Below are positions 2,821 through 24,913 of a stretch of 24,913 nucleotides of DNA, piece after piece. Source of the DNA: a virus. The DNA is taken from the IMG/VR virus record IMGVR_UViG_3300035703_001781, positions 1-24,913 of that record, one strand, 5' to 3'. A model generated the notes under the pieces. That model ran no database searches, was not told the origin of the DNA, and saw only the letters and a program-made list of their open reading frames with translations. Position 1 is the first letter of the stretch, and every line of letters begins with the position of its first letter. Made by a program: the position numbers and the translations under genes.

Positions 2821-3870
2821 ATGAGTGATTATAAAAAAACAGCACTTGTTCTTGGTGCTGGTGGTTTCATTGGAAGTCACATGGTAAGGAGATTGAAAAA
2901 AGAAGGATACTGGGTTCGTGGAGTGGACGTAAAGTATCCAGAATACTCTCAAACTCAAGCAGACGAATTTATCATGGGGGACTTGACTGATCAAGTCTTT
3001 GCGAAAAAAGTCGTGCAATTTGTGGGTTATGGAAATAACTTTCATAAAACAATTCCTTCAGAATATATTGAACCTTTTGATGAAATCTATCAGTTTGCTG
3101 CTGATATGGGCGGTGCGGGATATATCTTTACTGGAGATCATGATGCAGACGTTATGAATAACTCCGCAAGTATTAATCTCAATATTCTTCGTTCTGTAAA
3201 AAATCTTAACGACAAAACAAAAACAAATAAAACTAGAATTTTCTATTCTTCATCTGCTTGTGCCTATCCAGAACATATTCAACTTGATCCAAATAATCCT
3301 GGATTGAAAGAAGAAGATGCATATCCTGCTGCACCTGATAGTGAATATGGTTGGGAAAAACTTTTTTCGGAACGTCTTTACTTTGCTTATTATCGCAACT
3401 ATGGTATTCCTGTACGTGTCGCTAGATACCATAATATATTCGGACCAGAAGGGACTTGGAAAGGTGGAAGAGAAAAGTCACCAGCAGCTATTTGTAGAAA
3501 AGTAGCAGAACTTTCATCAACTGGTGGAGAAGTTGAAATTTGGGGAGATGGTGAGCAAACACGCTCATTCCTTTATGTCGATGAGTGTGTAGAAGCAACT
3601 TATCGTCTTGTTCAGTCGGACTTTATGGGACCAGTAAATATTGGTTCTGAAGAAATGGTTACGATTAATCAATTGGCAGATATCGCTGCAAAAGTAGCAA
3701 ACAAAACGATTATAAAAAACCATATTGACGGACCACTTGGAGTTCGTGGTCGTAACTCAAATAATGATTTGATTCGTGAAAAACTTCAATGGGATTATTC
3801 TATGACTCTTGAAGATGGAATATCGAGAACTTATGAATGGATTAATAATCAACTTAAATCTATGGAGTGA
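2821..3870 (+). CDS. gme: GDP-mannose 3,5-epimerase homologue (SDR family), 349 aa
   Basis: An extended short-chain dehydrogenase/reductase. The NAD-binding GAGGFIG is at residues 12-18. The active-site stretch SSSACAYPE carries Cys147, the YGWEK motif gives Tyr176 and Lys180, and TWKGGREKSPAA gives Lys219. These match the Cys/Lys acid-base pair and Tyr-x3-Lys of plant GDP-mannose 3,5-epimerase, as do WGDGEQTRSFLYVDEC and the VRGRNSNN tail motif. The known enzyme turns GDP-D-mannose into GDP-L-galactose (and GDP-L-gulose). Length is close to the family (about 370 aa). It is the first gene of the glycan module, followed by two GT11 genes three bases downstream. The family assignment is strong; the product sugar in this host is inferred. 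Confidence 0.88.
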   Translation: MSDYKKTALVLGAGGFIGSHMVRRLKKEGYWVRGVDVKYPEYSQTQADEFIMGDLTDQVFAKKVVQFVGYGNNFHKTIPSEYIEPFDEIYQFAADMGGAGYIFTGDHDADVMNNSASINLNILRSVKNLNDKTKTNKTRIFYSSSACAYPEHIQLDPNNPGLKEEDAYPAAPDSEYGWEKLFSERLYFAYYRNYGIPVRVARYHNIFGPEGTWKGGREKSPAAICRKVAELSSTGGEVEIWGDGEQTRSFLYVDECVEATYRLVQSDFMGPVNIGSEEMVTINQLADIAAKVANKTIIKNHIDGPLGVRGRNSNNDLIREKLQWDYSMTLEDGISRTYEWINNQLKSME

Positions 3871-23412: not shown

Positions 23413-23870
23413 TTGAATACGCTTAATTCAATAGATCTTTGGCCTGTAGCAGTGGTTCCTGCACCACCAGCAGTAACAGTAGGAACACCAGTTGGGGAAA
23501 GAGTTCCTGCAAGGGTCCCTTTTTCACCACCAACTTGAGTTACACTATCTCCATAGAGATTAGGTGTTCCAATCACACCATTAGTAACTGTTTGAGTGGT
23601 AACAGGAGTATCAGCAGCATTAATACTTTCCGAGAAACTAAATGCTTGTCCTGGAGTATTGATGTCATAAGTTCCAGCACCACCTACACCACCAAAAGAT
23701 GTAGATTGAATATTGGTTCCTGATGCTGAATAGGAAGCACCGATTCTGGTTGATTGAACAGCAGCACCATCAACTTTCAATTGAACGGAATCAGTGATTT
23801 TTGATGTAATTTCAGCAGCATTAACTGGGATAGCGAAGAATAACGAAAAGGCTAATAGGAGTCTTTTCAT
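23409..23870 (-). CDS. Secreted beta-rich protein, 153 aa
   Basis: ATG 23870 is chosen over a GTG at 23891 because it starts a clean signal peptide (MKRLLLAFSLFFAIPVNA, cleavage before AE). The mature protein is almost free of aromatic residues and rich in Gly, Ser and Thr, with short beta repeats (SKITDSVQLKVDGAAVQSTR, YSASGTNIQSTSFGGVGGAG). It ends VTAGGAGTTATGQRSIELSV. It is first in a four-gene minus-strand unit, 27 bp after a late-promoter-like box. There is no named family. Confidence 0.75.
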   Translation of the reverse strand: MKRLLLAFSLFFAIPVNAAEITSKITDSVQLKVDGAAVQSTRIGASYSASGTNIQSTSFGGVGGAGTYDINTPGQAFSFSESINAADTPVTTQTVTNGVIGTPNLYGDSVTQVGGEKGTLAGTLSPTGVPTVTAGGAGTTATGQRSIELSVFK

Positions 23871-23896
23871 TTTCTTATTGTGAATGAACACTAAAG

Positions 23897-23904
23897 TTAT
23901 TTAG
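23897..23904 (-). promoter_or_regulatory. Candidate late promoter on the minus strand (CTAAATAA)
   Basis: Read on the minus strand, CTAAATAA covers 23904-23897, matches the box before the porin gene, and lies 27 bp upstream of the ATG at 23870. It would drive the four minus-strand genes. Confidence 0.6.
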
Positions 23905-23926
23905 GAGACTGCTCCCATTTGGGGGG

Positions 23927-23960
23927 TTGACGTGGGAGGCAAACCATAGTATGATAAATA
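23927..23960 (+). promoter_or_regulatory. psbA promoter (sigma-70 type, with adjacent late-like box)
   Basis: TTGACG at 23927-23932 and TATGAT at 23950-23955 are spaced by 17 bp. GATAAATA at 23953-23960 overlaps the -10 and resembles a late promoter, as at the porin gene. It is divergent from the minus-strand unit. Confidence 0.65.
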
Positions 23961-23992
23961 GGTAAACAAATGTTACGAATCTCTCACAATTC

Positions 23993-24103
23993 TTAACATT
24001 GTTAAACTCCCACTAACCGAGACCTATGGGGAGTATAAACACGTCTCTCATATCCCCGCTGAGGGTGCGGGGAGCATAGTAACTCCACCATTTCCCTGAT
24101 GGT
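23993..24103 (+). promoter_or_regulatory. Structured psbA mRNA leader (possible PhotoRC-type RNA)
   Basis: ACTCCC (24006-24011) pairs with GGGAGT (24029-24034). GAGAC (24019-24023), inside that loop, can pair with GTCTC (24043-24047), making an H-type pseudoknot. Two hairpins follow: CCCCGC/GCGGGG (24054-24072) and ACCAT/ATGGT (24087-24103). A small palindrome TTAAC/GTTAA (23993-24005) precedes. From memory, the photoRC RNA motifs lie upstream of psbA in cyanobacteria and cyanophages; membership is not tested here. Confidence 0.55.
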
Positions 24104-24125
24104 CTTACTACTATTTTAAAAAACA

Positions 24126-24913
24126 ATGACTGCTTCAATTGCACAACAACAACGACAACTGAATACTTGGGAACAATTTTGCAACTGGATTACCAGCACC
24201 GACAACCGCCTCTATGTGGGTTGGTTCGGCGTTCTGATGATTCCTTGCCTTCTTGCCGCAACTATTTGCTTTATCGTTGCATTCATCGCTGCTCCTCCTG
24301 TGGACATCGATGGCATCCGTGAACCCGTTGCTGGTTCACTCATGTACGGAAACAACATCATCTCTGGTGCTGTTATCCCTTCGTCCAATGCTATTGGACT
24401 GCACTTTTACCCCATCTGGGAAGCTGCTTCCCTAGATGAGTGGCTCTACAACGGTGGACCTTTCCAACTGGTAGTGTTCCACTTCCTCATCGGCATCTAT
24501 GCTTACATGGGTCGTGAGTGGGAACTCTCCTACCGCTTGGGTATGCGTCCTTGGATCTGCGTTGCATACAGCGCACCTGTTGCTGCTGCTTCTGCTGTTT
24601 TCCTGGTCTATCCTTTCGGCCAAGGTTCTTTCTCTGATGCGATGCCTCTTGGTATCTCTGGTACTTTCAACTACATGCTTGTGTTCCAGGCAGAGCACAA
24701 CATCCTGATGCACCCCTTCCATATGCTTGGAGTTGCTGGTGTCTTCGGTGGTTCTCTGTTCAGTGCAATGCACGGTTCTCTGGTTACTTCCTCGCTGGTT
24801 CGTGAAACCACTGAGAACGAGTCACAGAACTATGGTTACAAGTTTGGTCAAGAAGAAGAGACCTATAACATCGTTGCTGCTCATGGATACTTCGGTCGTC
24901 TGATCTTCCAATA
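24126..24913 (+). CDS. psbA: Photosystem II reaction-centre protein D1 (partial, 262 codons)
   Basis: The frame is open from ATG 24126 to the window edge, so the last quarter (quinone-binding end and C-terminus) is missing. The sequence is D1: [60 protein letters not shown], and [19 protein letters not shown]. Residues equal to Tyr161, Asp170, Glu189 and His190 are present (numbering here is +1). The GREWELS block has Glu at canonical position 130, the form linked to high-light D1. No clear Shine-Dalgarno lies before the ATG; the leader is structured. Phage D1 replaces damaged host D1 during infection. Confidence 0.97.

Follow-up and report, generated by a model that had tools for sequence, protein, structure and literature searches.

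The 5′ leader of a viral psbA gene (photosystem II D1) is, on comparative sequence grounds, a genuine new member of the PhotoRC-II RNA family (RF01717), and its core is an H-type pseudoknot, both helices of which covary among related leaders. The structure of the leader is better supported than its function, which we infer. The gene lies at the end of a 24,913-base virus contig, referred to here as the window. Rfam has listed PhotoRC-II since 2010, and the gene behind it is among the best-known photosynthesis genes of ocean viruses.

Family membership and layout of the leader

Membership of the photoRC-I or photoRC-II motifs had been proposed by a sequence-only reading of the window, and a covariance-model search against Rfam bears this out for the second family but not for the first. 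The PhotoRC-II model covers positions 23994 to 24087 of the plus strand from end to end (model positions 1–96 of 96) with 81 bits, compared with a gathering score of 39. PhotoRC-I (RF01716), which also precedes psbA-type genes, but in cyanobacteria, and is found in host genomes, has no match in the window, and none in 23700–24500 even at E-values up to 10, so that membership of this family was rejected. Alignment to the PhotoRC-II model recovers the same two hairpins, both of which covary, together with the conserved linker and loops, and the leader stands 5′ of psbA in marine phage sequence, as indicated by the virus record and the late promoter motif. The relatives of this psbA reach at most 99% identity, the nearest being cyanophage genes. 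Whereas the Rfam search structure of PhotoRC-II consists of two nested hairpins only, a pseudoknot helix (S2) and a third hairpin (H3) are supported here as well (Table 1). PhotoRC-II was described by Weinberg et al. (2010), in the main text of which no pseudoknot is named (PMC2864571), and the CaCoFold structure-prediction paper places it among the families with covarying pairs absent from Rfam (PMC7657543); the pseudoknot may be among these additional pairs and hence may have an earlier record. A literature search, thin on subscription journals, returned no paper on a PhotoRC-II pseudoknot, H3, function or experiment.

Upstream of the leader, a sigma70-like and a late promoter overlap, for the latter of which the consensus NATAAATA has been published (PMC2984593), and a dual promoter has been described for cyanomyoviral psbA (PMC5931967). 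With a transcript start near 23962 the leader would be ~164 nt long, in agreement with the distance of about 165 bases between promoter and start codon that had been pointed out beforehand. The 5′ hairpin H0, located between the promoter and S1, corresponds in position to the inverted-repeat hairpin published for phage S-PM2d (PMC5931967); its occurrence in relatives rests on the sequences themselves and on the S-PM2 report, as the regions were cut inconsistently for automatic scoring. No intrinsic terminator was found in the leader, and attenuation is therefore unlikely.

Table 1. Features of the psbA leader and its surroundings in the window.
Feature	Positions	Strand	Sequence	Remarks
Sigma70-like promoter	23927–23955	+	TTGACG-17-TATGAT	10/12 consensus matches; same layout 5′ of related psbA genes
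Late (gp55-type) promoter motif	23953–23960	+	GATAAATA	Overlaps −10 box; kept in relatives
H0, 5′ hairpin	23969–24000	+	AATGTTAcGAAT/ATTCtTAACATT	11 pairs and one mismatch; paired in computed ensemble
S1 of pseudoknot	24006–24011 with 24029–24034	+	ACTCCC/GGGAGT	Both sides changed in 6/6 pairs; paired cells 87.6%
S2, pseudoknot helix	24019–24023 (S1 loop) with 24043–24047	+	GAGAC/GTCTC	Covariation
Pseudoknot loops	L1 24012–24018; L2 24024–24028; L3 24035–24042	+		
H2	24053–24073	+	TCCCCGC/GCGGGGA, loop TGAGGGT	Both sides changed in 5/6 pairs
H3	24087–24103	+	ACCATT/GATGGT, loop TCCCT	Beyond Rfam model; stem varies in relatives
Predicted ribosome landing stretch	24104–24125	+		A/U-rich, unstructured, without Shine-Dalgarno
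psbA (photosystem II D1)	24126–24913	+		ATG at 24126; record end cuts gene after 262 codons

Pseudoknot core, downstream hairpins and start region

The sequence-only reading had drawn a stem whose loop motif GAGAC pairs with a downstream GTCTC, followed by two more hairpins and an ATG, and each of these elements was located in the sequence. In ~13% of letter shuffles the S1 loop finds a five-nucleotide complement within the 26 nt that follow, and the nested fold of the leader has modest stability (z of −1.95), hence the single sequence proves little and the decision falls to covariation in related leaders. For this purpose psbA loci were gathered by protein similarity, independently of the RNA, and searched with a covariance model that held the two nested hairpins only, the pseudoknot being left out, which yielded 84 leaders.

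Within this alignment, built without S2, the S2 arms are fully complementary in 83 of the 84 leaders and occur in eight versions, namely GAGAC/GTCTC (64 leaders), GAGAT/ATCTC (5), AAGAC/GTCTT (4), AGGAC/GTCCT (3), GGGAC/GTCTC (2, with a G-U pair), GAGGC/GCCTC (2), GGGGC/GCCCC (2) and GGGAT/ATCCC (1); the arms of the 84th leader (L067), which are shifted by an alignment slip, form AGGA/TCCT. S2 cells are paired in 99.5% of cases, as opposed to 30–76% when the partner is slid by one to three columns, and compensatory changes occur in four of the five pairs, amounting to 22 cells compared with 1.9 in shuffles. Arms switch type 15 times or more on a psbA tree and 16 times on a leader tree built without the arms, and because the changes recur on both trees the variation does not go back to one inherited event. 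That GAGAC/GTCTC is a chance complement, as its frequency in shuffles would allow, is refuted by the 22 compensatory cells, the eight arm versions and the 15 or more switches on the psbA tree, and is scarcely credible. The pseudoknot suggested beforehand thus passes the covariation test, and the leader core is, on these alignments, an H-type pseudoknot. An alternative pairing of AGACC with GGTCT of H3, replacing the pseudoknot, can form in the window but, as judged by eye, is lost in relatives and was rejected.

The wobble pairs of H2, found in 26 sequences, are U-G on the psbA strand, which argues that PhotoRC-II acts as a psbA-sense-strand RNA and not as a DNA cruciform. H3 is present in almost every relative, where its stem letters change entirely (CCATT/GATGG, GTTCG/CGAAC, TCCAG/CTGGA, GTTCAA/TTGAAC and AGTAC/GTACT, among others) and its loop is always C-rich. 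The hairpin ends 22 nt 5′ of the psbA start codon here; in nearly all relatives this distance, counted to the match end, is ~23–28 nt. Among 78 distinct leaders, GGG in the H2 loop (24063–24065) is invariant (100%) and CCC in the H3 loop reaches 94–97%. Complementarity between these loops extends over three or more pairs in 91 of 91 leaders, above letter-shuffled loops, and over five pairs in some (AAGGG/CCCTT, TAGGG/CCCTA, GGAGG/CCTCC). No covariation supports an H2–H3 kissing loop in these 91 leaders, however, as loops re-paired between leaders score equally (0.85), so that a GGG-CCC contact is suggested as a possibility by invariance without covariation. Further unpaired letters are invariant in the 78 distinct leaders besides the GGG (among them ACC 24016–24018, A24038, U24048, U24051 and A24076), and such letters suggest that the leader has a tertiary core or is bound by a partner. 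The UACU at 24106–24109, 3′ of H3 and ahead of the start codon, is 86–96% conserved in the same set and predicted to be mostly unpaired; it is a putative binding site. The ATG that follows the two later hairpins does lack a Shine-Dalgarno sequence, as had been noted, but this does not set the leader apart, since such a sequence is present in only 4 of the 136 viral and 2 of the 62 host psbA genes compared and its absence is ordinary for both.

Distribution and variants

Wherever enough downstream DNA is available, psbA lies 3′ of PhotoRC-II (76 of 76 pattern matches, including one gene automatically classed as ‘other’ that was read as a divergent PsbA). Isolates that carry it belong to several cyanomyovirus genera (Syn9, S-CAM1, S-SM2, S-TIM4, S-TIM66, ACG-2014f and P-SSM7), while no match was obtained in three podoviruses (P-SSP7, S-CBP3 and S-RIP1), nor in S-CRM01, S-CBWM1 and S-PM2. 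Since some phage psbA leaders thus do without it, PhotoRC-II is not essential for psbA expression. On the host side, it was detected in none of 41 cyanobacterial psbA loci and in a single one of the 400 genomes searched from one cyanobacterial family. The sole positive (G440:C3, locus L347) is a 189-kb contig with phoH, thymidylate synthase and exonuclease genes next to a PhotoRC-II psbA, and is most likely a phage contig inside a cyanobacterial assembly bin. As this lone match in a host assembly has phage-type genes, presence in hosts was rejected, and PhotoRC-II is, across the sequences compared, both psbA-specific and phage-specific. The idea that PhotoRC-II and the psbA group I intron are mutually exclusive, alternative modes of control was likewise dropped, because two loci (L002 and L006) carry both.

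Six leaders (L018, L025, L038, L060, L214 and L360) represent a variant with an insertion after the 5′ strand of S1, ahead of the conserved ACC, which is probably a small added hairpin (GGAG...CTCC in L018 and L025). Two leaders fall below the PhotoRC-II cut-off, namely L025 (GAGGC/GCCTC) and L060 (GGGGC/GCCCC), and L018 is only just above it; a model that includes the pseudoknot and H3 should recover divergent members that the present model misses or scores near the limit.

Second copies of PhotoRC-II are found in two phages (L038:150–282 and L345:440–576), 1.2–1.4 kb 5′ of the psbA copy, which keep the promoter, H0, the pseudoknot arms and the H2 region and have lost H3. An endonuclease-like reading frame (L038) or a 388-aa gene of unknown function (L345) lies between the copies, and the psbA leader thus looks like a site at which genes are inserted along with a copy of the leader. 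For Syn9 (L349, NC_008296, position 165949), the annotation starts psbA at a GTG that falls within the PhotoRC-II H2 loop and lies in frame with the conserved ATG, 57 nt 5′ of it, and the annotated PsbA is probably too long at its N-terminus.

Possible roles of the leader RNA

The reading that we favor, with some reserve, is that PhotoRC-II is a cis-regulatory RNA in the psbA 5′ leader of T4-like cyanophages and acts in the post-transcriptional control of D1. A post-transcriptional RNA role is supported by the Rfam match far over the cut-off, the covariation, the position of H3 and the strict link to psbA. The predicted transcript would start a few nucleotides 5′ of H0, which would close its 5′ end; the middle of the leader would form a compact fold, and the open part would be the last ~22 nt before the AUG. 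Such a fold could set the yield of D1 from the phage message through access of the 30S subunit to the start without Shine-Dalgarno, and could shield the message against decay that depends on the 5′ end. The present data fit translation and stability, and constitutive and regulated action, alike. S2 and H3 provide exact positions to disrupt and restore, by which post-transcriptional control of D1 becomes testable. A more far-reaching version, unlikely as a whole, would have the full leader from H0 to H3 form a four-part tertiary fold (H0, the H-type pseudoknot, and H2 linked to H3 through a GGG-CCC loop contact), which gates the start without Shine-Dalgarno, occurs only with psbA and in phages, and makes D1 output independent of host control; if so, the shape of an RNA would set D1 output during infection.

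The nearest mechanistic parallel is the translational operator of T4 gene 32, where a 5′ pseudoknot before an open initiation region nucleates gp32 on the mRNA and represses translation (PMC535899), although this would be a likeness in working and not in membership. By analogy, gp32, S1 or a photosynthesis-linked regulator might nucleate on the psbA pseudoknot and block or help initiation. The layout is similar, in that the message of a T4-like phage bears an H-type pseudoknot at its 5′ end and an A/U-rich start region without Shine-Dalgarno downstream, and the many invariant unpaired letters would suit a protein. However, the sequence differs and the gene is psbA rather than gene 32, two hairpins that the T4 operator lacks stand between pseudoknot and start, and there is no known binding protein, hence a protein operator is improbable.

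The leader could also be purely a stabilizer, a structure that keeps RNase E from the 5′ end of the message without any regulation. H0 lies at the predicted 5′ end and is retained even in S-PM2, which has no PhotoRC-II, a structured 5′-UTR has been proposed to affect stability (Puxty et al., 2018; PMC5931967), and RNase E is upregulated during infection of Prochlorococcus by phage (PMC9692554). For this task H0 alone would be enough, however, and the invariant loops and the position of H3 would be left unexplained, which makes a stabilizer alone doubtful. Rather unlikely is a riboswitch with its ligand pocket in the pseudoknot, responding to an ion or small molecule connected with photosynthesis or with infection: the H-type pseudoknot, the third loop of which contains A, and the invariant unpaired letters would be in keeping with it, and cyanophages do carry such elements (wcaG RNA in the window, glutamine-II RNA by other phage psbA genes), but PhotoRC-II was marked as probably not a riboswitch in the entry of Weinberg et al. 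(‘n’; PMC2864571), and the leader controls a single gene and shows neither a terminator nor a sequestered Shine-Dalgarno. The displaced second copies adjoin inserted genes in two phages, from which it follows that the leader stretch takes part in recombination, yet a DNA-level operator or recombination site in place of an RNA is very improbable, as the compensatory pseudoknot changes and strand-specific U-G pairs are signs of RNA and neither promoter nor strand varies in relation to psbA.

Light had been named beforehand, alongside host translation factors, as a possible input to the control of D1. A light response of cyanophage psbA has been published for S-PM2d (PMC5931967), but the S-PM2 psbA leader consists of a promoter and the 5′ hairpin H0 only, and since a light-responsive psbA thus lacks PhotoRC-II, light control by the cis-regulatory RNA proposed here is without support. 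The 5′-UTR of S-PM2d psbA resembles the present leader in its overlapping sigma70 and gp55 promoters and in H0 (Puxty et al., 2018; PMC5931967), and differs from it not only in the missing PhotoRC-II but also in the CfrI antisense RNA and in a psbA that contains a group I intron.

Other structured RNAs were encountered in the same sequences. S-PM2 has a match to the selenocysteine tRNA model (L364:2853–2938; 49.7 bits compared with a cut-off of 47), which may be an odd tRNA or chance. Glutamine-II riboswitch aptamers lie 3′ of psbA at seven loci (L046, L047, L051, L054, L057, L061 and L063), where psbA is without PhotoRC-II. The window itself carries a wcaG RNA (RF01761; 2652–2752, 91.7 bits) ~70 bases 5′ of a sugar-nucleotide epimerase-like gene (2821–3870).
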